This document shows positions 946-15,057 of a stretch of 27,401 bases of DNA, piece by piece. The notes below the pieces were generated by a model, which did no database searches, was not told where the DNA came from, and saw only the letters and a list, made by a program, of their open reading frames with translations. This DNA comes from a virus, in the IMG/VR virus record IMGVR_UViG_3300009164_003703, positions 1 to 27,401 of that record; one strand, given 5' to 3'. A program made the translations under genes and the position numbers. Position 1 is the stretch's first letter. The number at the start of each line of letters is the position of its first letter.

Positions 946-967
946 AATAGGGACCGAAGTCCCTATT
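946..967 (-). terminator. Intrinsic terminator of the tmRNA unit
   Basis: A perfect 9-bp stem (AATAGGGAC / GTCCCTATT) encloses a four-base loop that reads TTCG on the minus strand, a very stable UUCG-type tetraloop. A T-rich run follows on that strand. It sits about 40 nt after the tmRNA tag stop codon. Confidence 0.88.
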
Positions 968-1186
968 GCTATTTTCTGTTACTAGGTATAACTACCCTAC
1001 GCCAGTGATTAAACTGCGAAAGTTTCGGCTTTCACTGAACTACGAGCAGAGAAACGAATTCCTTTGCTTGCTGATACAGTTACTTCGCCTTTAGATGCGT
1101 TTGCGTCTAGGTTTTTTCACTTTTAACGTCTATCTGGTGACGATCCCCATAAGTGTAGCTCAACCCTGTCGAATCCTTTCATCCCC
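968..1186 (-). ncRNA. ssrA: tmRNA coding piece
   Basis: The mature 5' end should be G1186, because it pairs with the acceptor strand before the CCA. The piece contains the D-arm signature, the 5' strand of P2 (1155-1147), a possible small stem CGTC/GACG (1142-1139 with 1130-1127) where a pseudoknot PK1 is expected, the resume signal TAGAC, the tag frame, and a bulged hairpin just after the stop (TAGG..TACCTA, about 998-982). The 3' end is not determined and is set before the terminator stem. Confidence 0.8.
1009..1104 (-). other. tmRNA tag reading frame (31 codons)
   Basis: The resume codon GCA (1104-1102) follows TAGAC, equivalent to the TAGTC before GCA-AAC in the E. coli tmRNA and with the A at position -4 conserved. 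The frame then reads A-N-A-S-K-G-E and ends AETFAV before TAA (1011-1009). Typical tags have about 8-20 residues, are acidic or neutral and end in two alanines. This one is 31 residues, rich in Lys, Arg and Ser, and ends in Ala-Val. The middle (ASKGIRFSA) resembles the C-terminal arm of HU-type DNA-binding proteins. Confidence 0.75.
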
Positions 1187-1227
1187 GTTCAAAACATACT
1201 TTATTAAAATATGCTTCAAACGAAGTG

Positions 1228-1297
1228 TGGTGGAGATGGCGGCATACGATAGCCGCGTCCAAGATAGTATTTCACCTATAGTTGCCATTACTGGCAG
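1228..1297 (-). ncRNA. ssrA: tmRNA acceptor piece
   Basis: From 5' on the minus strand there is a hairpin TGCCA-GTAA-TGGCA (1296-1283) with a GNRA-type loop. The 3' strand of P2 follows (1281-1273), then a T-arm with stem GCGGC/GCCGC (1256-1252 with 1243-1239), then the acceptor strand CATCTCC (1238-1232), discriminator A and CCA (1230-1228). The T-loop as drawn has 8 nt instead of the usual 7, which is odd. The 5' end is estimated; the upstream nuclease gene stops at 1303, only a few bases away. Confidence 0.82.
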
Positions 1298-1302
1298 ATT
1301 CT

Positions 1303-1920
1303 TTAATTCAAAATCATTCTATTTTTTCTTATAGCATATTTTGAACCTTTAATATATTTATCTCGCCTATCATCTTTATACTTACCTTCGTCTAGATTCA
1401 ATAACCAATTAAATGGATGATACGCAGTAATACCAAAAATATCAATAAATTTTGATTCCAATGCAAGCGATGCTGGTTCATTTAGAGATTCTTTTACCTT
1501 AATTACTAATATTTCTTTGTTAGTTTTAGCTATCTGTTGTTTTTTCTTGGCATATGAATCATTTCTGGTAGTATCATAGCATCTATCACCAATTCCTTTA
1601 CCAACGTAAAAAGGCTTAAATTGTAATCCTATTTGAGCAGCAAATAAATTTTTAGAATTCTTTGTAGCCACAATTGGTATATTTGGGTCACAGTGAAAAT
1701 AAACATAATATTCACCTGAGCCAGACTCTCCGTATATAGATGAGATATCTGATTCTAATATAGCGTTAAACGATTCAAAAATTTTTTCTTCGCCTCTTAA
1801 AGTATTTGATATTCGTGGCTCAGGTGGTGGCTTTAGCATAAGTTCTTCTTTGATTTTTTTAAGTTTTCGAATCGTTTTATTGATTGAATCTATTTCTGTT
1901 TCATTAAAATCTATTTTCAT
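1303..1920 (-). CDS. GIY-YIG family endonuclease
   Basis: The 205-residue product has a GIY-YIG nuclease core. YYVYFH (71-76) stands for the first signature strand and FYVGKG (104-109) for the second. R113 and E155 sit where the catalytic arginine and metal-binding glutamate are expected. The N-terminal 55 residues are a charged helix-rich segment, and the C-terminus is very basic, fitting DNA contact. Stand-alone GIY-YIG genes in T4-like phages are often homing endonucleases (Seg type) that insert beside conserved genes. Here the gene lies exactly between the tRNA (ends 1948) and the tmRNA acceptor piece (starts about 1297) with no promoter or terminator of its own visible, so it is probably co-transcribed with both RNAs. 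It looks more AT-rich than the flanking RNA genes, in keeping with a mobile origin. A repair or restriction role cannot be excluded. Confidence 0.8.
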   Translation of the reverse strand: MKIDFNETEIDSINKTIRKLKKIKEELMLKPPPEPRISNTLRGEEKIFESFNAILESDISSIYGESGSGEYYVYFHCDPNIPIVATKNSKNLFAAQIGLQFKPFYVGKGIGDRCYDTTRNDSYAKKKQQIAKTNKEILVIKVKESLNEPASLALESKFIDIFGITAYHPFNWLLNLDEGKYKDDRRDKYIKGSKYAIRKNRMILN

Positions 1921-1947: not shown

Positions 1948-2024
1948 TGGTAGGCCCTCTGAGATTTGAACTCAGGATCTCGCCCATTATGAGTGGGGTG
2001 TTTTCACCGCTAAACTAAAGGCCT
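1948..2024 (-). tRNA. tRNA with CAU anticodon (Met or Ile2)
   Basis: The 77-nt gene folds as a cloverleaf on the minus strand. The acceptor stem is AGGCCTT/AGGGCCT, the D-stem GTTT/AAAC with GG in the loop, the anticodon loop CTCATAA with anticodon CAT, and the T-arm CTGAG-TTCAAAT-CTCAG. Discriminator A and an encoded CCA follow. The outermost anticodon-stem pair is a C-C mismatch. CAU may serve elongator methionine, or isoleucine AUA codons after lysidine modification; phages often carry the latter. The sequence alone does not decide. A consensus promoter lies directly upstream. Confidence 0.92.
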
Positions 2025-2041: not shown

Positions 2042-2070
2042 ATTATAACCACATTAACTATAATTGTCAA
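2042..2070 (-). promoter_or_regulatory. Consensus sigma70-type promoter for the tRNA-tmRNA unit
   Basis: TTGACA (2070-2065), 17 bp, TATAAT (2047-2042) on the minus strand. The predicted start is about 10 nt before the tRNA 5' end at 2024. The -35 box overlaps the 3' end of the upstream gene. No other strong promoter or terminator is seen before 946-967, so it probably drives tRNA, nuclease and tmRNA together. Confidence 0.85.
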
Positions 2071-4001: not shown

Positions 4002-4189
4002 TCTTTACTCCTCTTTTTACATTCTTCTATTACTGCTTTTGGAAAATCTGGATGCCAGTTTCCGATTAGCATACGGCAATTATATTTTACGGTAACACGA
4101 TCTTTATCTTGTTTTGCTGCTATAAAAGTTAATGCTATTACGAATACCAACACTATTAATGACAGTACTCCAAACAAAAACTTAAGCAT
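3998..4189 (-). CDS. Small single-pass membrane protein
   Basis: The 63-residue product has a hydrophobic helix at about residues 4-25 (FLFGVLSLIVLVFVIALTFI) and a polar, basic C-terminal part with two cysteines. It could be an inner-membrane anchored peptide or an uncleaved signal. It overlaps the exonuclease gene by 8 nt upstream and the next gene by 4 nt, so it is embedded in an operon. No function is inferred. Confidence 0.68.
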   Translation of the reverse strand: MLKFLFGVLSLIVLVFVIALTFIAAKQDKDRVTVKYNCRMLIGNWHPDFPKAVIEECKKRSKE

Positions 4190-5183
4190 CTAATATTCCA
4201 CTATAAGTTTTGTTCATCCAACCACCAAACGAGTCAGCATTTTCACTCAATTTAGCAAGATCATATTTTCCACAGAACTGGAGAAATCTAACTCCAACTT
4301 GCCCTACATCTTTATTGCTGACTTGTTCTTTAATAGCAGTATCAACTGCCAGCTTAATGTCGTCGGGCTGTGCGGTTAGATCTACTAATTTTACATTACG
4401 CTGATAATCATCTAACACACGATGTTCTACTTCGTCTGGATCAGTCCATCGTTGTAACATCATGTTGTTCCATGCGTATCCTTTTTTATCTCGGTCTTCA
4501 AAAGCTTCCGTAAGACCAACCTTCGTTTTAGTGCCTTTGACCCTGACCCCAGGGTATGCTGAGAAGATGTTATCCGATGAATCGCCGCGCATACACTTCT
4601 CGAAGAGTAGCCATGCCGGATTAACTGGCGCTTTAGGTTCTTTAGTTTTCTTATCGATGACAATCTTTCCTTTATCATTAAATGTTCCTTCTAAAGTTAT
4701 TAATTCATCTGTTATGCCGTTATATTGTTTGACATTTGGTGCTACTAACTGAACTATGTCGGTATCACTACTGACAACAACATGTTCATCATTGGGATGT
4801 AATGCGATCCAACGAGCCATAACATCATCACCTTCTGCTATTGGACATCGGATGACACTACAGTTTGTTTTCTCAGACAAATATTTAGTCAAGGATTCAT
4901 ATGCTTCCCAGAACATTTTGTCTTCTTCTATCTGTTGATCTGTTAGTGCTTTCTTAGCTTCTGCACGATTGGCTTTGTATGGTTTGTAAAAATCTTTGCG
5001 CCATGATCGCCCTTCAAGAGCAAACACTACATGATCAGCATTGACCATTCTTGCTACTTTATTAGCAGAAGAAAGAATGATATGTAAACAAAATGCTGTT
5101 TTTTCTTCTGAGGAAGAAGCACGAGATGCTATGTGTCTGGCACGAAAGAACAGATTTGCGGTATCTATAAGAATATATTTCAT
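4182..5183 (-). CDS. rnh: RNase H-type 5'-3' exonuclease (T4 Rnh family)
   Basis: The 333-residue protein is a FEN/PIN-type 5' nuclease like T4 RNase H, which removes RNA primers and flaps from lagging-strand fragments. The N-terminus MKYILIDTANLFFRA gives the first metal ligand (D7). The helical-gateway region GRSWRKDFYKPYKANR (58-73) carries the conserved basic residues. AEGDD (116-120) and SSDTD (138-142) are the acidic clusters. CMRGDSSDNI, near 207, is the second metal site, followed by a helix-hairpin-like G-rich turn before TKVGLTEAF. T4 RNase H has 305 residues, so the length fits. The gene heads a chain of overlapping genes and has a strong promoter (5190-5218) that predicts transcription from the start codon itself. 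Confidence 0.87.
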   Translation of the reverse strand: MKYILIDTANLFFRARHIASRASSSEEKTAFCLHIILSSANKVARMVNADHVVFALEGRSWRKDFYKPYKANRAEAKKALTDQQIEEDKMFWEAYESLTKYLSEKTNCSVIRCPIAEGDDVMARWIALHPNDEHVVVSSDTDIVQLVAPNVKQYNGITDELITLEGTFNDKGKIVIDKKTKEPKAPVNPAWLLFEKCMRGDSSDNIFSAYPGVRVKGTKTKVGLTEAFEDRDKKGYAWNNMMLQRWTDPDEVEHRVLDDYQRNVKLVDLTAQPDDIKLAVDTAIKEQVSNKDVGQVGVRFLQFCGKYDLAKLSENADSFGGWMNKTYSGILDA

Positions 5184-6000: not shown

Positions 6001-6334
6001 ATTCTCTTTCCCATTTTAAATGACTATTCATTGCTCCACCGCAGCAGAATTTACCATTTACTTTAAATTTAACTCCGTTTAAAGTAAATGGCTTTAGTAC
6101 ACGATCACCATTCAACCAGCCACGCTCACACGTAATATAACCCTCTGCTTCTAGTTGATTGCGTAATGCTTTAAACTCGGGGCTATCTTCATTTCTAATT
6201 GAGGTAAACTGGTGAGTACCTTTTAAAATCTTAATCAAATCGTTTGCTGTAGGATTCTCTGGATTCTCTAGATAACTACGTACAGAGTGTATAGATACAT
6301 CAAACGGTTTTGATTCGTCAATTGTAAAATTCAT
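5972..6334 (-). CDS. Hypothetical protein
   Basis: The 120-residue product has a helix-rich first half (VRSYLENPENPTANDLIKIL, then FKALRNQLEAEGYI) that could be a small winged-helix-like unit. The C-terminal part is strand-rich and ends in a polar tail, with a CCGG motif near residue 97 and one cysteine earlier. No metal site is certain. Its ATG shares one base with the stop of the Bax inhibitor-like gene (TGATG arrangement), so the two are translationally coupled. Confidence 0.7.
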   Translation of the reverse strand: MNFTIDESKPFDVSIHSVRSYLENPENPTANDLIKILKGTHQFTSIRNEDSPEFKALRNQLEAEGYITCERGWLNGDRVLKPFTLNGVKFKVNGKFCCGGAMNSHLKWEREYENKRTNHN

Positions 6335-7038
6335 CAGTCGTTTTTATTGCCAAATAATTGTAACAAATTAAGAAAGATATTAATGAAGTCAAGGTATAGT
6401 GTCAACGCACCTGTTACTTCAACTGCTGAACTAGAGTCAACACTAACCATTTCACGAATTTGTTGTGTGTCGTATGCTGTCAAACCAAGAAAGATAATGA
6501 TAGCAAGTGCGCTAATTACCATTTGCATTACAGTACTGCCAATAAAGATATTAACAACACCGGCAATAATAATCGCAATTAACCCTATAAACATAAACTT
6601 GCCTAAACTATCTAAGCTTTGTTTAGTAAAATAACCATAAAAACTCATTACTCCAAACAAGATTGCTGCCCCCATGAAAGCACTAACAATACTGCCCATG
6701 GTAAATATGGCAAAGATTGTGGCAAAGCTTAATCCCATTAGTGCCGCAAATCCATATAAACATAATAGGGCAGTACTTTTGCCTGGACTACGTGCCAATA
6801 TCATCGCAACACCAAATACTGCTACCAATGGAGCAAAGATTACAATCCACTTTAAAATTCCTGTGAAAAAGAATTTTAACAATTCAGGACTAGTGCCAAC
6901 AAAATAACTGACCAACATTGATACAATTACTGCTAAACTCATATATCCATAGACTCGACCCATTGCGCTATTAACTTCTTCTGCTGACCGATAAGGCAAT
7001 GCCACAGTATCGGCTTCCATCTGATTTGTATTAAACAT
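6334..7038 (-). CDS. Bax inhibitor-1 (YccA/BI-1/TMBIM) family membrane protein
   Basis: The 234-residue protein has about seven hydrophobic helices after a polar N-terminus of 30 residues. The family's C-terminal signature is clear: GLTAYDTQQIREM (about 185-197) and GALTLYLDFINIFLNLLQL (about 209-227), with the acidic residues in the last helices that line the proton- and calcium-sensitive pore in this family. Bacterial members sit in the inner membrane; E. coli YccA is an FtsH substrate and modulator. A phage copy might protect phage proteins from FtsH or change ion leak in infected cells, which is inference. It has a good AGGAG ribosome binding site and lies downstream of the phosphoribosyltransferase gene in the same probable transcript. 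Confidence 0.88.
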   Translation of the reverse strand: MFNTNQMEADTVALPYRSAEEVNSAMGRVYGYMSLAVIVSMLVSYFVGTSPELLKFFFTGILKWIVIFAPLVAVFGVAMILARSPGKSTALLCLYGFAALMGLSFATIFAIFTMGSIVSAFMGAAILFGVMSFYGYFTKQSLDSLGKFMFIGLIAIIIAGVVNIFIGSTVMQMVISALAIIIFLGLTAYDTQQIREMVSVDSSSAVEVTGALTLYLDFINIFLNLLQLFGNKND

Positions 7039-7059: not shown

Positions 7060-7578
7060 TCATTTATTCCACCAGTTTTCCCATGGGAATTCAACCTGGC
7101 AATCTTCTGTAAACGTATTAATTGTAACAGAGCTATAGTTAATAGCAAGCTCTGATTTGCTCACTTCGTTGTCGTATAGCGTGGCTATACGAGTACTCTT
7201 ACCCCACACATGATCCCAACGTTCATCATGTCCTAAACAGCCGTCTTCCCAATCCTGTTTAATCCAATTAAATTTACCGCCTGTGTAATTGATATCGTTA
7301 ACGATAAGAATTTGCTTTGGAGAATCTAAATAGCCGTATGCATCTTCAGCCATCCATAAGTTAGATTCACATTGGGTGTCATTATTATTAATCTGCAAAC
7401 GAACTTGTAGAGTTTCCATTGGAACATTTAAATATTGACTAATCAAGGTAGCAGGAACTAGTCCACCATGGGTAAGCCCAACTACATAGTCAGGCTTCCA
7501 ATTATCTAGATGAATTTGTCGTATAATGTCCTGACACATGCCTTCAACATCTTGCCAAGTTACAGTTAATTTTTTCAT
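7060..7578 (-). CDS. Purine-type phosphoribosyltransferase
   Basis: The 172-residue protein is a type I phosphoribosyltransferase. GLTHGGLVPA (34-43) is the pyrophosphate loop and ILIVNDINYTGG (90-101) is a PRPP-binding motif in which the usual paired acidic residues appear as N-D. Such enzymes transfer a base to PRPP; xanthine-guanine or hypoxanthine forms are nearest in layout. The family assignment is firm, the base specificity is not. It may salvage purines from degraded host nucleic acid. The gene has a consensus promoter (7608-7636) and leads the unit that includes the Bax inhibitor-like gene, with a TAGGAT ribosome binding site. Confidence 0.82.
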   Translation of the reverse strand: MKKLTVTWQDVEGMCQDIIRQIHLDNWKPDYVVGLTHGGLVPATLISQYLNVPMETLQVRLQINNNDTQCESNLWMAEDAYGYLDSPKQILIVNDINYTGGKFNWIKQDWEDGCLGHDERWDHVWGKSTRIATLYDNEVSKSELAINYSSVTINTFTEDCQVEFPWENWWNK

Positions 7579-7607
7579 TGTAAATCCTATAGATTGAGTA
7601 AAGTTAA

Positions 7608-7636
7608 ATTGTACACGATCTATAGAAATTTGTCAA
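7608..7636 (-). promoter_or_regulatory. Consensus sigma70-type promoter for the phosphoribosyltransferase unit
   Basis: TTGACA (7636-7631), 17 bp, TACAAT (7613-7608) on the minus strand, with a leader of about 25 nt to ATG 7578. The -35 box contains the TGA stop codon of the upstream epimerase gene (7635-7633), a compact overlap of gene end and promoter. Confidence 0.83.
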
Positions 7637-8535
7637 CTTAAAATTTGCCGAATACCCTCTTCAAAACTCAAAGGATTGTAATCAGGCATAATTTCACGCA
7701 GCTTGGTAAGATCTGGACGACGATTGGTCACAGAGCCTGGCATACTAGGTAATTCTTCAAATACCGCGTCAGGGTGTCCTAGTTCATTTGCGATAACACG
7801 AACAGCGTCACCAATTGATATTTCACGGTCATTTCCAACATTTACTAGTACACGATTGGCATTCTCAGCGACATATATACTGGCACGAATAGCATCACTT
7901 ACATGACAGAATGATCGTGTTTCATGTGATCCAATAACTGAAAATACGCCATTTTTGATCTTATCAATTTGATCACCTAAGAAGTGACCTTTCTTTGAAT
8001 TTTCTCCGTATACATTGAAATATCGTAGCATAACGTAAGGCAATTCAGAATTAGCCAGAAAGTTTTCGCTGGTAATCTTAGCTAACCGATAACTCCAACG
8101 TGCGTTATGTATATCCTTAACGAATACGTCTGAGTTCTCAGTAACAGGACTAACAGGATCGTCAGCGACAACTTCAGAGCTTGATGCATACACTAATCGC
8201 TTAAGATTTTTACACTTGACGGCAAAATTGAATACATTTATGTCACTGACAAAGTTGTTTTCTAATACCTTATTTGGCATTTTATAAAAGTTAGTTGTGC
8301 CATTGATAGCACCATAATGATAAATGTAATCAAAATCACGGGGTAATGATGATAGCCCAATAAATCTATCATTTGCCAACAAATCCATTTTATACCATTC
8401 ATCACAAGGAGGAATAGTTTCACTGCGGCTATGATTATCAACTGCCCAGACTTCGTTACCTGCCGCTTTAAGCTGATGGCAAAATTCTGTTCCTAACAAT
8501 CCACTGGCACCTGTTACTAAAATTTTACTCATCAT
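7633..8535 (-). CDS. NAD-dependent sugar epimerase/dehydratase (extended SDR)
   Basis: The 300-residue enzyme begins with the Rossmann motif VTGASGLLG (7-15). The catalytic triad is visible as Ser in VYASSSE (about 118-120) and Y149-x3-K153 in YRLAK. The substrate-binding half carries RYFNVYGE and, further on, the RPDLTKLRE motif typical of nucleotide-sugar 4-epimerases and related dehydratases. It should act on a UDP-, GDP- or dTDP-hexose; the exact reaction cannot be told. Two ATGs stand in tandem at the start. It overlaps the UDP-sugar dehydrogenase gene upstream by 11 nt and is the last gene of the sugar cassette. Confidence 0.88.
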   Translation of the reverse strand: MMSKILVTGASGLLGTEFCHQLKAAGNEVWAVDNHSRSETIPPCDEWYKMDLLANDRFIGLSSLPRDFDYIYHYGAINGTTNFYKMPNKVLENNFVSDINVFNFAVKCKNLKRLVYASSSEVVADDPVSPVTENSDVFVKDIHNARWSYRLAKITSENFLANSELPYVMLRYFNVYGENSKKGHFLGDQIDKIKNGVFSVIGSHETRSFCHVSDAIRASIYVAENANRVLVNVGNDREISIGDAVRVIANELGHPDAVFEELPSMPGSVTNRRPDLTKLREIMPDYNPLSFEEGIRQILS

Positions 8536-9301
8536 TTACCTTTGCGTTATCATCAATAAGGGCTTGAATCATTGAAAACTCTAGTCCTAAACTTTTAACA
8601 AGATTGTTCCATGCACTTGTATCTTTTGGCAAACAATGCCCGCCGAAACCACGAAGGTTCTCATTACACATTAGATAAGCAGGGTTGATACTATCACGTT
8701 GAATGATAGCGTTATATACATTGTTGTAATCTACGCCTAGTTTTTTACATACTTCATATGCAATGTTGGCAAATATAATTTGAGTAGCATGATTTACATT
8801 GTTAAAATATTTTACAACTTCTGCTTCAGCTGGTTTAACACATGCAACATTCTTTGGCAAATTACCATGTATTGCTTTCATCATGACATAATCTTCATCA
8901 CGAGTACTGCCGATAATTAGAAGATCATGATTATACATAAAGTCAGCTAATGCTGTTTTTGCACGAAGAAATTCTGGCACTGAGCAAATACGTAGTTTTG
9001 GATATTCTGCTGATAAGCGATCACATGTGCCAGGTACTACTGTACTTTTAATACTAACTAGCCCTGTGTATTCAGCTGCGTGTAATGCTGATATAACACT
9101 TTCTACAATACTAGTATCACAATCTCCATTTTCAGCTTGATTAGTTGGCACACTGATAAACACACAATCTGTGCCTAAGATATCATTGATTGTTGATCCA
9201 TCATATGCTGGATCAAAAAAACTCATTTCATGTCCTAGATGATTAAGACCTTCGTATACTGCCTTGCCTACTGTTCCCTTTCCTATAATTCCAATTTTCA
9301 T
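8525..9301 (-). CDS. UDP-glucose/GDP-mannose dehydrogenase family, short form
   Basis: The 258-residue protein has an N-terminal Rossmann fold (GIIGKGTVG, 4-12), KSTVVPGT (85-92), PEFLRA (109-114), and the active-site helix AEVVKYFNN (160-168) with Lys164 and Asn168. The catalytic cysteine C223 stands in GFGGHCLPKD. These are the residues that oxidise a UDP-hexose twice to the uronic acid. Usual members have about 390-450 residues; this one stops soon after the central helices and lacks the C-terminal UDP-binding domain. It may bind a different substrate or act as part of a complex. It sits between an SDR and an epimerase gene and overlaps both. Confidence 0.86.
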   Translation of the reverse strand: MKIGIIGKGTVGKAVYEGLNHLGHEMSFFDPAYDGSTINDILGTDCVFISVPTNQAENGDCDTSIVESVISALHAAEYTGLVSIKSTVVPGTCDRLSAEYPKLRICSVPEFLRAKTALADFMYNHDLLIIGSTRDEDYVMMKAIHGNLPKNVACVKPAEAEVVKYFNNVNHATQIIFANIAYEVCKKLGVDYNNVYNAIIQRDSINPAYLMCNENLRGFGGHCLPKDTSAWNNLVKSLGLEFSMIQALIDDNAKVNDE

Positions 9302-9891
9302 TTTGTTTCCTCTGGATACTTCATATCAACTAATTCATTACCTTCAGTTGATGTCATGTTTAAAATTGCTTGCGCTACTTGATCTGGCTCTAGGCAAATA
9401 GCTTTAGTTGACATATCTATCATCGGTGTACGAGTTCTTACAGGATTAATTAGTCCTAATGTTATATTAGATCCTAAAAAATACTCGCAAGCTCCTTGCC
9501 ATACATTATATAGTGCGGTTTTACTAGCAGCGTATAAAATATAGTTCTTTCTTATTGAGTTATAGGAACTAGATCCTACCATGATAATTTTTACTGGTTT
9601 AGTGCTTTTATTTTCCATGTAATGTTTGATAATGCTCCAGTTAGAGCCAACATTAACGTTCATAGTTTTAAAATGAGTTTCTTTATTGGTATCGTCAAAA
9701 TGCCCGACGCAGTTAACAACCACGTCAGGCATAATTTTTCTTAATAACTCATCTACTTGAGTCTGACTTTGTATCCATTCAAAGTCAATTTGCTTACTAC
9801 TAATAGAATATACTGTATATCCGACTGCAGCAAAGGCAGCACAAGTAGCACCACCTATACCACCTTTACCGCCGAATATAACTACTTTCAT
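9298..9891 (-). CDS. Short-chain dehydrogenase/reductase
   Basis: The 197-residue protein is a compact classical-type SDR. The glycine-rich loop is GGKGGIG (7-13), MNVNVG (77-82) carries the structural asparagine, VGSSS (105-109) the catalytic serine and Y120-AAS-K124 the catalytic pair. LINPVRTRTPM (147-157) is the loop after the active site and resembles SDR domains of surface-polysaccharide gene clusters. The substrate is probably a sugar or polyol (inference from context). Overlaps of 4 nt on both sides place it in the cassette. It is shorter than the usual 240-260 residues because loops are trimmed; no catalytic residue is missing. Confidence 0.84.
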   Translation of the reverse strand: MKVVIFGGKGGIGGATCAAFAAVGYTVYSISSKQIDFEWIQSQTQVDELLRKIMPDVVVNCVGHFDDTNKETHFKTMNVNVGSNWSIIKHYMENKSTKPVKIIMVGSSSYNSIRKNYILYAASKTALYNVWQGACEYFLGSNITLGLINPVRTRTPMIDMSTKAICLEPDQVAQAILNMTSTEGNELVDMKYPEETK

Positions 9892-10295
9892 TCTGGAATA
9901 ATAGAATCAACTCTTACTGTATCTGTTTCGTAATCTTCGCCGCCACGAGGACCTTCAGCAAAGGCTATAAAAACACATCCATGCTCACCAGATTTCATAG
10001 TATGAATTTCTTTTGGATCACTGATGATAAAATCTCCCGGAACAGCTTCATAAACTGAAACTGGTTCTGATTTATCTACGGGCTGAGAGTAATAAGTTAA
10101 TCCACCAGCTAGAATATATGTATATTGAATAGTATGGTTATGATAATGGTTACCACGTACTGCACCTGGATTATTACTGATGATGCAGCCGTGATTAATA
10201 GACTTCTTGTAAAAGATATCTACGATAGATCCACGCTCATCATTGAATGAGCCTAGACCAGGTTCTGTGTTGATAGCAACATTGTAACATTTCAT
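9888..10295 (-). CDS. Cupin, WxcM/FdtA-like sugar isomerase or epimerase
   Basis: The 135-residue protein is a single cupin barrel. RGNHYHN (47-53) is the first cupin motif with two histidines, and DPKEIHTMKSG, near 93-103, the second. NDERGSIVDIF (18-28) corresponds to the DxRG start seen in dTDP-4-keto-sugar 3,4-ketoisomerases and 3,5-epimerase-like proteins. These rearrange a 4-keto-6-deoxy sugar nucleotide in deoxy-sugar pathways. Many members bind a metal or use the histidine as base. It overlaps both neighbours by 4 nt. The cupin fold is certain, the exact reaction uncertain. Confidence 0.8.
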   Translation of the reverse strand: MKCYNVAINTEPGLGSFNDERGSIVDIFYKKSINHGCIISNNPGAVRGNHYHNHTIQYTYILAGGLTYYSQPVDKSEPVSVYEAVPGDFIISDPKEIHTMKSGEHGCVFIAFAEGPRGGEDYETDTVRVDSIIPE

Positions 10296-11521
10296 TGTGA
10301 TATAAACCTTGTATTTGGATTAATTTTTAGTAACGCTTGCTTTAGTGGTTCACCGATGTTCCAGCTTAATACTAACGCATATGGTTTCTCATGTAACGCA
10401 AACTCTTCGTCACCCTTAATAGGAATACGTGACAGAGGAGTATACTTACCTTGTTTGAACTCACTAGCATCAGTAATACAATGCAATAGAGTCTTATCTA
10501 GTTTGTGCCAGTTGAGCCAAGTGTTAGCCTTAGCAGCAGCACCTACACCTATAATAACAGCATCTGGTTCATCTGCTAGGATTTGATAAAATTTGCGAAG
10601 CCATTCATTACGTTGTTGCTCAAATTTTGTTTGTAATTTGCTATAAAATTTATAGTTAAACAAACCCATTGCTGTTTCTTTTTCAATGGCACTTTGAATT
10701 AACGCTGGCATTCCGTTACCGGTATCCATTTTAGCAATAACACGCAGACTTCCACCGTGATAATCAACCACATCGTAATCTACAATTGTCATTCCAACTT
10801 GCTGTAGCAAATTCCAAACACTCTTAACAGTAAAATAAGAAATATGCTCATGGTATACCATGTCTACAAAGCGACCACTCTCAACCATACTTGCCCAGTA
10901 TGGCACTTCAAAGACAAACAAACCTTCTTTGTCTAATAAATGGGTAACGCCAACAGCAAACTCAATAGGATCATTGGCATGATTGAATACGTTATTAGCC
11001 ATGATCAAACTTGCTCGTCCATGTTCGCATTCTAGCTTATCAGCTAATTCAATGTTAAACAATCCCTTGACAGTGTTAACACCAGCTGCCTTGGCAATCT
11101 TACACATATCCTTAGACGAGTCAACACCTAATGCGGTAACGCCATCTTCTTGAAATTGTTTAATTAGGTAACCATCGTTGCTGCCGATCTCTACAACTAA
11201 TCCTTTAGGATTAAATTTGCTTTTGATAGTAGTGGCATATTCGTCCCAGTGATCTCTTGCTGTCTTAGAATTGGAACTAGTATAACTATAGCTGTATAAG
11301 TTATAGCGATCCTTGGCATCACTGGCATAACCCAGTTGAATGCCACCTGATTCCGAACTTAAATATAACTGGAGCGGGAATACAGGCTCAGATAAATTTA
11401 ATTGATTTTCAGCAATGAATGTATCAGCATATGCATGTTGTCCAAAATCTAAAATCTTGGTTACTGGAGCATTGCTGATTACACATTGCCATAAATGTTT
11501 ACTTTCTGTAATTTTACTCAT
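10292..11521 (-). CDS. SAM-dependent sugar C-methyltransferase-like protein
   Basis: The 409-residue protein shows the three-part layout of the TylC3/NovU-type C-methyltransferase family. Residues 8-40 match the N-terminal domain (LDFGQHAYADTFI), 109-119 are SAM motif I (VEIGSNDGYL), MANNVFNHANDP (about 174-185) and EVPYW follow, and YHEHISYF is near 233-240. The C-terminal domain contains VIIGVGAAAKANTWLN (about 325-340). The usual N-terminal zinc site (two CxxC pairs) is reduced to a single Cys at residue 13, so zinc binding is probably lost. The enzyme should methylate a keto-sugar nucleotide. It is preceded by the glycosyltransferase-like gene with a one-base stop/start overlap. Confidence 0.84.
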   Translation of the reverse strand: MSKITESKHLWQCVISNAPVTKILDFGQHAYADTFIAENQLNLSEPVFPLQLYLSSESGGIQLGYASDAKDRYNLYSYSYTSSNSKTARDHWDEYATTIKSKFNPKGLVVEIGSNDGYLIKQFQEDGVTALGVDSSKDMCKIAKAAGVNTVKGLFNIELADKLECEHGRASLIMANNVFNHANDPIEFAVGVTHLLDKEGLFVFEVPYWASMVESGRFVDMVYHEHISYFTVKSVWNLLQQVGMTIVDYDVVDYHGGSLRVIAKMDTGNGMPALIQSAIEKETAMGLFNYKFYSKLQTKFEQQRNEWLRKFYQILADEPDAVIIGVGAAAKANTWLNWHKLDKTLLHCITDASEFKQGKYTPLSRIPIKGDEEFALHEKPYALVLSWNIGEPLKQALLKINPNTRFISQ

Positions 11522-12348
11522 TATCGTTTTACCGGTGTTTGTGTCATTTGTTTGTTGATATCATTGGCCCTGAGTTTTTCCCAGGGGTCTTGTTTTCCTG
11601 CTTTAACATTATTCCAAAATGTAAGATCTACATTGTTAGATTCTAAATAGGTAGCAATAACATTAGCATCTGCTATTCTACCATTGCCATACGAAAAGTG
11701 ATGAAAGTCTAGTGGATTACTAGGATTCCCTTCTAGTATATCACGTTTTTGATAAGTTATGTCATTATTATTGCCAGTTAAATCATGTCTATCATGTGTA
11801 GCATAAATTTCTACAATTTCCATAATGTCTAGCATATAAGCAATTTGGCTGAGTTCAGCGTCAGTCATTTGATGGCGAGATACAAATCCAAATAAATCAT
11901 ACCATTCTTTAGGATATATAGGAAAAATTGAATAAGGATGTTCGCGGTGAACATGAATCTTAAGTAACTTAAATTGACCTGTATGATTAGTTACAATTCT
12001 GTCCCATCCTGTAGTTTCCATGAGCGCATCATCATTCCATACGAATAACCAATCGGCATTTGCCTGAGCGGCTAATCCGTTGTAATACCTATTCAATCCA
12101 TTATAGCCCATAGGATCAAATACTACTACACTATATGCTACACCTTTATCTTCTAACCAAGGTTGGATATCAGTAGAGAAATATTTTAATCCCACTTCGT
12201 CGTCATTGTCAAATCCCAACAATAGTTGTACTGAATCTACATCAAGTGCGCGATTGAAGATACTGATAATACTAAGTTTTAATGCTGTAGTTCTAGCTCT
12301 AGTTGGCAATAATACCGCTATTTTATATTCATTTGTGGTGCTGGTCAT
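11521..12348 (-). CDS. Glycosyltransferase-like protein (GT-A type)
   Basis: The 275-residue protein opens with IAVLLPTRARTTALKLSI (about 10-27), the nucleotide-binding strand of GT-A glycosyltransferases. LLLGFDNDDE lies at 42-51 and WLFVWNDDALM near 100-110, where NDD may be the metal-binding DxD-like motif. The rest is polar and without membrane segments. It could move a sugar to a glycan, to a protein or to modified DNA bases; the neighbourhood of sugar-nucleotide genes supports a role at the end of the pathway. It has an AAAGGA ribosome binding site and a late-like AGTAAATA box upstream, and is the first gene of the cassette. Confidence 0.75.
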   Translation of the reverse strand: MTSTTNEYKIAVLLPTRARTTALKLSIISIFNRALDVDSVQLLLGFDNDDEVGLKYFSTDIQPWLEDKGVAYSVVVFDPMGYNGLNRYYNGLAAQANADWLFVWNDDALMETTGWDRIVTNHTGQFKLLKIHVHREHPYSIFPIYPKEWYDLFGFVSRHQMTDAELSQIAYMLDIMEIVEIYATHDRHDLTGNNNDITYQKRDILEGNPSNPLDFHHFSYGNGRIADANVIATYLESNNVDLTFWNNVKAGKQDPWEKLRANDINKQMTQTPVKR

Positions 12349-13977: not shown

Positions 13978-15057
13978 ATGAAACGTGCCGTGCTATGTGT
14001 TGACAATCCACAACACTTTATTCCTCAGTTAAAAGATCATTCTATAATGATTATAAATCCTAATGCTCCTGAAGCTAGGAATAGATATCTATTAGATAAC
14101 TCTGACTGGAGTTTATACATTACTAAAGACCAAGAAAAAGTTAGAAACGGCAATGACTATCCTAACGAACGAGTACTTTGGTATACATCAGGTACCACGG
14201 GAGATAGTAAGTTTTGTAGTTTCACACAAGCACAGCTAAACAACATGGCTGCTACTATTGTTAGATCATACAATTTGACAGCTAATGATAGATACACCAG
14301 CATCATGAGTCTATGGCATGCCCATGGGCAGGGTTTTTACTGGGCAACTCAGTTAGCAGGATGTGAAACTACCTACATTACTATGAAAGACATTAAAACC
14401 TTTCCTTCTACTAAATCAACTTTTATAACTGCCATTCCTGATGTACTAAGAGTTATTGCTGAATTAGATTTTGACAATTTAAGATTCATACGCTCTGCTA
14501 GTGCTCCTATGCCACACGATTTGTATCACAAGTTAAGCTCAAAGTTTAATGTGCCTATCGTTGAAGCGTTTGGCATGACAGAGGCAATGAGTCACTGTTT
14601 CACTAATCCTCTTGCTGGTCCACAACGAGTTGGCACAGTAGGATTGCCAGATGGCATAGAAGCTAAAATTGAAAATGGTCATTTAATGATTAAAGGTTTT
14701 AATATTTGTCATAGTGATTGGTATGATACAGGGGATCTAGCTGACCAAGACGAAATGGGTTATTATCGTATATTAGGACGTAGTAGAGATCAAATTAATG
14801 TTAAAGGTTCTAAAATCAATCCTGTAAGGATAGAACGACAACTATTACAAAATATTTCCGGAATGAAGGAATGTGTTGTATTTGGAACTGATCGTGTTAA
14901 GTGTTTATATGTAGGCACTTGTGATGAAGATAGTATTAAGAACTTCTTAATAAGTTTAGGTAAACATTGTAAACCAGCTGTACTTAAGTGTGTAGACTCA
15001 ATTCCACTTAGCCCAGCTGGTAAAATATCTAGGGCTTTATTAGATTCCTGTCATTAA
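13978..15057 (+). CDS. Adenylate-forming (ANL / acyl-CoA synthetase-like) enzyme
   Basis: This is the only clear plus-strand gene. The 359-residue product has all core ANL motifs. YTSGTTGDSK (69-78) is the ATP-binding loop, AFGMTEA (197-203) the adenine and substrate motif, YDTGDL (249-254) the ribose-binding aspartate, GRSRDQINVKGSKI (267-280) the hinge, and PAGKISR (346-352) the C-terminal catalytic lysine (K349). It should activate a carboxylic acid as acyl-AMP and pass it to CoA or a carrier. Normal members have about 500-550 residues; this one lacks most of the N-terminal subdomain. No acyl carrier protein is nearby, but an SGNH-like gene converges with it and overlaps its 3' end by 29 bp. 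An acyl-transfer partnership is inference. Confidence 0.87.
   Translation: MKRAVLCVDNPQHFIPQLKDHSIMIINPNAPEARNRYLLDNSDWSLYITKDQEKVRNGNDYPNERVLWYTSGTTGDSKFCSFTQAQLNNMAATIVRSYNLTANDRYTSIMSLWHAHGQGFYWATQLAGCETTYITMKDIKTFPSTKSTFITAIPDVLRVIAELDFDNLRFIRSASAPMPHDLYHKLSSKFNVPIVEAFGMTEAMSHCFTNPLAGPQRVGTVGLPDGIEAKIENGHLMIKGFNICHSDWYDTGDLADQDEMGYYRILGRSRDQINVKGSKINPVRIERQLLQNISGMKECVVFGTDRVKCLYVGTCDEDSIKNFLISLGKHCKPAVLKCVDSIPLSPAGKISRALLDSCH

Follow-up and report, generated by a model that had tools for sequence, protein, structure and literature searches.

A permuted tmRNA gene with a long tag and an adjoining GIY-YIG-type nuclease ORF on a jumbo-phage genome

We found that positions 1297-946 on the minus strand of the phage stretch IMGVR_UViG_3300009164_003703 (27,401 nt, analysed whole and called the window here) are a permuted tmRNA gene. 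The Rfam model RF04321 (tmRNA_permuted) matches 1288-1072 (–) above its cut-off (62.1 bits versus 47, E 5.6e-10). A preliminary description made from the letters alone had proposed such a two-piece gene on a phage genome and suggested a scan with the Rfam tmRNA models; the significant RF04321 score bears it out. On reading the sequence, its coordinates for the acceptor piece, spacer, coding piece, acceptor stem and P2 also prove correct. Absent from it were the tag frame at 1104-1009 and a GIY-YIG-like ORF. Overall, the locus probably encodes a functional phage permuted tmRNA that would act through host SmpB, add a phage-specific tag and form a hotspot for a homing endonuclease.

Anatomy and pairing of the gene

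Features of the locus, in window coordinates:
2042..2070, minus strand: sigma-70-type promoter upstream of tRNA-Met, TTGACA-17-TATAAT, 12/12 consensus match
1948..2024, minus strand: tRNA-Met (CAT), by ARAGORN; RF00005 60.4 bits
1144..1940, minus strand: swapped cassette of nuclease ORF and tRNA-like domain, from alignment to L003/L096
1303..1920, minus strand: ORF of 205 aa for a GIY-YIG-type nuclease, immediately upstream of the acceptor piece, from PF22945, motifs and linkage
1228..1297, minus strand: acceptor piece, with hairpin CTGCCA..TGGCAA at 1297-1282, from sequence reading, Rfam and homologue pairing
1281-1273, minus strand: P2 5' strand CTATAGGTG, within the acceptor piece
1256-1239, minus strand: T-arm with 8-nt loop, within the acceptor piece
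1238-1232, minus strand: acceptor strand CATCTCC, followed by A73-CCA at 1231-1228
1187..1227, minus strand: intervening sequence, 41 nt, by analogy to known permuted tmRNAs (PMC11915505)
946..1186, minus strand: coding piece and terminator, with an acceptor strand, the P2 3' strand and the tag-coding part
1186-1180, minus strand: acceptor strand GGGGATG, within the coding piece
1155-1147, minus strand: P2 3' strand CACTTATGG, within the coding piece; 9 pairs with 1281-1273, including G-U
1009..1104, minus strand: tag reading frame, resume codon GCA at 1104, 31-aa tag ANASKGEVTVSASKGIRFSARSSVKAETFAV, stop TAA at 1011-1009
946..967, minus strand: intrinsic-terminator-like hairpin AATAGGGACTTCGGTCCCTATT, then T-rich sequence, from sequence reading

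The gene is ordered as acceptor piece (1297-1228), intervening sequence (1227-1187) and coding piece (from 1186), and on reading the sequence strands 1186-1180 and 1238-1232 form 7 pairs, G3-U70 included. The model RF01850 (beta_tmRNA) matches 1320-944 (–) with 52 bits (E 2.2e-13), under its cut-off of 84; L247, a homologue with the cassette, scores 108.9 with it. ARAGORN calls long-tag tmRNAs in six homologues (L096, L092, L086, L185, L133 and L164) and did not call the window copy, probably because of the 8-nt T-loop (TATCGTAT). This loop is not of the standard UUCGAUU type, which is typical of the permuted tmRNA class and is not demanded by RF04321, and many homologues are likewise atypical. 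A terminator scan placed the hairpin at 946..967 on the plus-strand side; equivalent terminator-like hairpins with different paired bases occur in homologues. Two further Rfam matches were rejected, Plastid-ycf2 as an antisense-tRNA artefact and mir-3613 as chance.

Loss of acceptor-stem and P2 pairing in homologues, named in the preliminary description as an outcome that would speak against the gene, did not occur. The 7-bp acceptor stem with G3-U70 and the P2 helix (1155-1147/1281-1273) are present, and pairing is kept by compensatory change. When all retrieved copies were parsed, G3-U70 was found in 40/40 distinct tRNA-like domains; copies that lacked a paired G3-U70 stem were discarded as parsing errors, so this invariance is partly built in, which is not true of the compensatory variety. 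The domains have 12 different acceptor stems, every one paired 7/7 (shuffled partners reach this in 0/5000). For P2 at restricted positions in 44 types, the cognate mean was reached by 0/5000 permutations. The restricted positions of that test do not include the window's own P2, which is covered by a separate test on five phages; their P2 helices of the window type (8-9 bp) differ and compensate mutually (181/20000 permutations reach this). The compensating versions are CTATAGGTG/CACTTATGG, CCATATAG/CTATATGG, CTTTATAAT/GTTATAAGG, CTTTGTGA/TCATAAAG and CTATAGTT/AACTATAG. An earlier P2 permutation that left the positions loose did not reach significance (424/2000); the position-restricted tests are used in its place.

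The window tmRNA could also be read as a remnant, degraded or hybrid, in which the cassette put a non-working tRNA-like half in the place of a good one. With RF04321 it scores 62 bits where many relatives that lack the cassette score higher, at up to 139 bits, and the 8-nt T-loop and the ARAGORN miss fit a remnant as well. However, the 7 acceptor pairs, G3-U70, A73-CCA, the 9-bp P2 and the tag frame are all intact. Moreover, the same 8-nt loop is found in L103 on a T-stem of different yet paired bases, and the closest relative of the nuclease, in L247, adjoins a tmRNA of 116.9 bits. We consider a remnant distinctly unlikely.

Phage carrier and the long tag

The carrier had been called T4-like. 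Its place in the T4 superfamily stands, and as judged from two proteins it belongs more exactly to a jumbo-phage branch: the nearest named relatives of the exonuclease are PA5oct-like phages (52%), and the DNA polymerase is nearest, among the named phages listed, to that of Sinorhizobium phage Phosso (49.6%). With window gene 4182-5183 (RNase H-like exonuclease) as the query, 80 related viral contigs were retrieved. A search of related phages had been proposed along with the model scan; in the 50 whole records scanned, RF04321 was above cut-off in 24/50. A host-phage chimera at this point, raised as a further ground for doubt, did not emerge: the same locus occurs in many phage contigs of up to 347 kb, and contigs with the long tag have sizes up to 340-347 kb. 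Phosso carries a permuted tmRNA above the RF04321 cut-off (113.3 bits), and RF04321 scans of PA5oct and Atu_ph07 gave no match. SmpB was looked for in 18 phage records, which include fragments, and none was found, which implies the use of host SmpB.

The tRNA-Met gene also neighbours the tmRNA locus in relatives L096, L092, L083, L115 and L154, and the promoter at 2042..2070, as a consensus match, is the likely start of a transcript that takes in the tmRNA. A second sigma-70-type promoter (12/12 consensus) lies at 930-902 (–), directly past the tmRNA terminator and ahead of the next gene. Elsewhere, the window encodes a membrane protein of the Bax inhibitor-1 family (6334-7038; PF01027, E 1.4e-52) and a metabolic gene block (7060-12348 and 13978-15057) with a phosphoribosyltransferase, a cupin, an AMP-binding enzyme on the plus strand and, by eye, apparent nucleotide-sugar genes. 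In L096, a 265-aa ORF (211-1008) between ORF120 and tRNA-Met looks by eye like a PD-(D/E)XK nuclease; if it is one, the locus would be a hotspot for a second nuclease type.

ARAGORN calls the same tag frame as that of the window in homologue L096. Most related contigs have this kind of tag (consensus ANASKGEVTVSGKNxKFSARTAKxxxLAV), with a conserved length of 27-31 aa in the family; other contigs have short tags at the same locus, such as ANDEQFALAA. A degenerate DNA pattern for the tag core matched 91 stretches in viral contigs. RF04321 was over cut-off in 49/49 pattern-matched records tested, and the 80 parsed matches all look like tmRNA tags. The same pattern had no match in 84,980 bacterial and archaeal genomes, and peptide patterns, used in a second search of prokaryote genomes, yielded 78 candidate stretches, 0 of which were confirmed as the long tag. 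Nor was the long tag found in isolate phages; tblastn with a short canonical-tag query also found nothing there, so this absence is weak evidence. Overall, the long tag family, found in uncultured related phages only, appears to be new.

Matches of the tag to PDB entries by phmmer were to repeat proteins and were set aside as compositional. In L273, ARAGORN reports at 2449-2793 (–) the tag GKNSIVAFTRKSSLVVA, which has a slight likeness to the long-tag core (GKNVKFSAR) and which we take to resemble cyanobacterial tags; a tag of this type is a possible origin of the long tag. The 235,812-base contig of L164 (L235, L236), which may be an assembly chimera, has two permuted tmRNAs at a distance of 29 kb; one encodes the long tag, the other the ordinary tag ANDESYALAA.

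The usual tmRNA tag ends in AA, mostly LAA. The long tag ends in AV in 61/65 distinct sequences, which suggests that tagged products undergo slower or otherwise altered proteolysis. In E. coli, degradation of an AAV tag variant is slower than that of LAA (PMC9382460). The idea of redirected tagging, raised in the preliminary description, draws some indirect backing from a tag that is long, conserved and AV-ending.

In 16 homologues retrieved independently of the tag, the tag core has a pN/pS of 0.50 in the tag frame, and the other frames give 1.29 and 1.20 (27/500 column shuffles match 0.50). For the whole tag the ratio is 0.69 on an independent set (shuffles 22/300). A value of 0.24 was discarded as biased, since those sequences had been found by the tag pattern. 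Exchanges of V/I and K/R use unrelated codons (VK to IR is GTC AAG to ATT CGT), and changes in tag length are of whole codons. The low in-frame pN/pS and the multi-base VK/IR exchanges together give moderate support to a peptide-level constraint on the tag core. The region might instead be conserved as RNA, for structure or regulation. Some third positions are invariant (ACT, GCT), as this would predict, and the selection test on the independent set is of moderate strength, but exchanges through unrelated codons, a pN/pS below that of both other frames and length changes in whole codons speak against it, and we find it quite improbable.

The tag also bears on the suggestion that the phage tmRNA mainly titrates SmpB or competes with host tmRNA, as a decoy like the tRNA-like-domain-only RNA of mycobacteriophage DS6A. 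RNA of the DS6A kind strongly inhibits tmRNA (PMC4131195), and the lack of SmpB in the 18 phage records is compatible with titration. However, a long in-frame tag with its stop is kept in dozens of phages with a core constrained in frame, and a pure decoy would require no tag. A decoy is, to our mind, very unlikely.

Cassette replacement and nuclease-tmRNA linkage

Compared with L003/L096, the window is 93-98% identical in the flanks, tRNA-Met included, and 1940-1144 has no counterpart. This cassette comprises the nuclease ORF, the acceptor piece, the spacer and the 5' part of the coding piece through P2. Its right boundary (1143) is identical against L096, L094 and L095 and falls just past P2, so the tRNA-like half has been replaced and the tag half kept. 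The nuclease is hence present or absent at one locus with the adjacent sequence replaced. L115, L154 and L197 share the nuclease and tRNA-like half at 97-100% identity across ~800 bases, and much of the flanks and tag parts is well below 97-100% in at least one pair; on these alignments, the pattern is the apparent footprint of a recent transfer.

The profile PF22945 (LEM-3_GIY-YIG) matches 5/5 members of the nuclease family (best E 3.6e-6); the window protein alone reaches 16.9 bits against a cut-off of 27 (E 0.0067). YVYxH, (P)FYxGKGxGxR, E and N motifs are invariant in five aligned proteins, and their residues presumably have the catalytic roles of the GIY-YIG family. A predicted structure (mean pLDDT 77) has a single plausible fold match, a GIY-YIG nuclease (E 0.056). 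Freestanding homing endonucleases, which act by intronless homing, are well known in phages, the T4 Seg proteins among them. As in the window, their ORF sits next to the presumed target, is polymorphic for presence or absence and goes with co-conversion of the adjacent gene part; the difference is that the putative target here is a tmRNA gene. From these patterns we infer homing, and the ORF at 1303..1920 is a candidate freestanding homing endonuclease.

A profile search of viral contigs gave 80 relatives of the nuclease. A permuted tmRNA over cut-off lies within ~1 kb in 27/35 of the nearest loci, among which L246 is a window-type contig, and two further near loci (L257 and L271) have sub-threshold or ARAGORN tmRNAs. 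The linked tmRNAs are of both alpha and beta type and usually lie tens of bases downstream of the nuclease, sometimes on its other side or on the other strand. Among distant nuclease relatives, a permuted tmRNA was nearby in 0/20. The P-value for this difference (Fisher test, 8e-9) is too small, since some of the near-relative loci are near duplicates. The closest relative of the nuclease (L247, 62%) is beside a tmRNA with the ordinary tag ANDEMFALAA; hence nuclease linkage and the long tag are separate features. A low score of the tRNA-like domain was rejected as a general mark of linkage, because the nuclease-linked tmRNAs of L247 and L272 score 117-119 bits (L247 116.9). By titles and abstracts, we found no paper in the open-access literature on a nuclease-tmRNA linkage, and a swapped cassette of tRNA-like half and GIY-YIG nuclease appears to be new.

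Tight linkage to tmRNA genes could also be expected if the phage used the GIY-YIG protein as a weapon to attack the tmRNA of its host or of rivals, as gene or as RNA, and were itself immune through its divergent tRNA-like half. The unusual tRNA-like halves of the window, L115 and L154 are in line with this idea. However, a nuclease that is present or absent at one locus, where the adjacent half-gene is replaced, is the usual footprint of homing, and some nuclease-linked tmRNAs are not divergent (L247 and L272, as above). We regard a weapon as unlikely and prefer homing into the tmRNA gene.

Known systems and proposed function

PMC9004378 reports a permuted tmRNA of the T4-like Methylophilales phage Melnitz, puts the two-piece tmRNAs of public phage genomes at 53 and finds one in 17/47 related contigs; for unique phage tmRNAs, PMC11915505 gives a count of 79. 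A permuted tmRNA in a T4-like phage was thus already known, and novelty for phages, as implied in the preliminary description, which held permuted tmRNA genes to be known mainly from bacterial chromosomes, is not supported. Melnitz and the pelagimyophages of that report share with the window a phage-encoded permuted tmRNA (Melnitz RF04321 113.4 bits). However, the Melnitz tag (ANDNYVPVDYALAA) is short with an LAA end whereas the window tag is long, and the Melnitz and pelagimyophage tmRNAs are of an alpha-type lineage, whereas the best older model for the window is beta-type and its relative is a jumbo phage. That report also covers a glutamine riboswitch, with no mention of a GIY-YIG gene. 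Phosso (PV764938) is likewise a named jumbo phage with a permuted tmRNA and has the closest DNA polymerase among those listed, but its tag (ANDNVSTKVALAA) is also short and LAA-ending, in contrast to the long tag of the window. Gene order, G3-U70 stem, T-arm, P2, GCA resume codon, tag frame and terminator are those of known permuted two-piece tmRNAs (RF04321, and RF01850 for the beta type), from which the window departs in its tag family (27-31 aa, AV end), its atypical T-loop and the replacement of its tRNA-like half along with a nuclease ORF.

Mobile elements are known to use the tmRNA gene in another way, as group I introns (883 intron-bearing sequences, PMC11915505). Unlike these, the window has no intron; its nuclease ORF is external to the gene and moves together with the replacement tRNA-like half. 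Small ORFs apparently inside the tmRNA intervening sequence occur in L102 (where an AGGAG motif precedes the ORF), L106/L107, L233 (Melnitz) and L243. In G039, a reading as two RNAs was dropped for the more likely one of a single tmRNA with a long spacer that holds an ORF.

We suggest the following course for the window tmRNA. Transcription would probably start from the promoter ahead of tRNA-Met. Host tRNA-processing enzymes would then cut the precursor into two pieces, rejoined through the acceptor stem and P2, and the 41-nt intervening sequence (1227-1187) is expected to be cut out, as in known permuted tmRNAs (PMC11915505). Charging with alanine is expected from G3-U70 and A73. Loaded with host SmpB, the tmRNA would free ribosomes stalled on broken mRNA during infection and add the phage-specific tag of 31 aa instead of a short LAA-type tag. 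The cassette would have replaced a previous tRNA-like half, most simply by homing-endonuclease-driven (repair) conversion at the tmRNA gene.

A bolder view, which we hold possible while leaning somewhat against it, is that a dedicated GIY-YIG family homes into phage permuted tmRNAs and swaps their tRNA-like halves, and that the long tag of this lineage steers rescued proteins away from rapid degradation by host ClpXP. If it is true, what becomes of proteins from stalled ribosomes is under phage control. A conserved, phage-only long tag that mostly ends in AV makes it directly testable whether such phages copy the host system or change it. In turn, the nuclease-tmRNA linkage would put tmRNA among the targets of phage homing endonucleases and would explain how tRNA-like halves come to be exchanged as modules.
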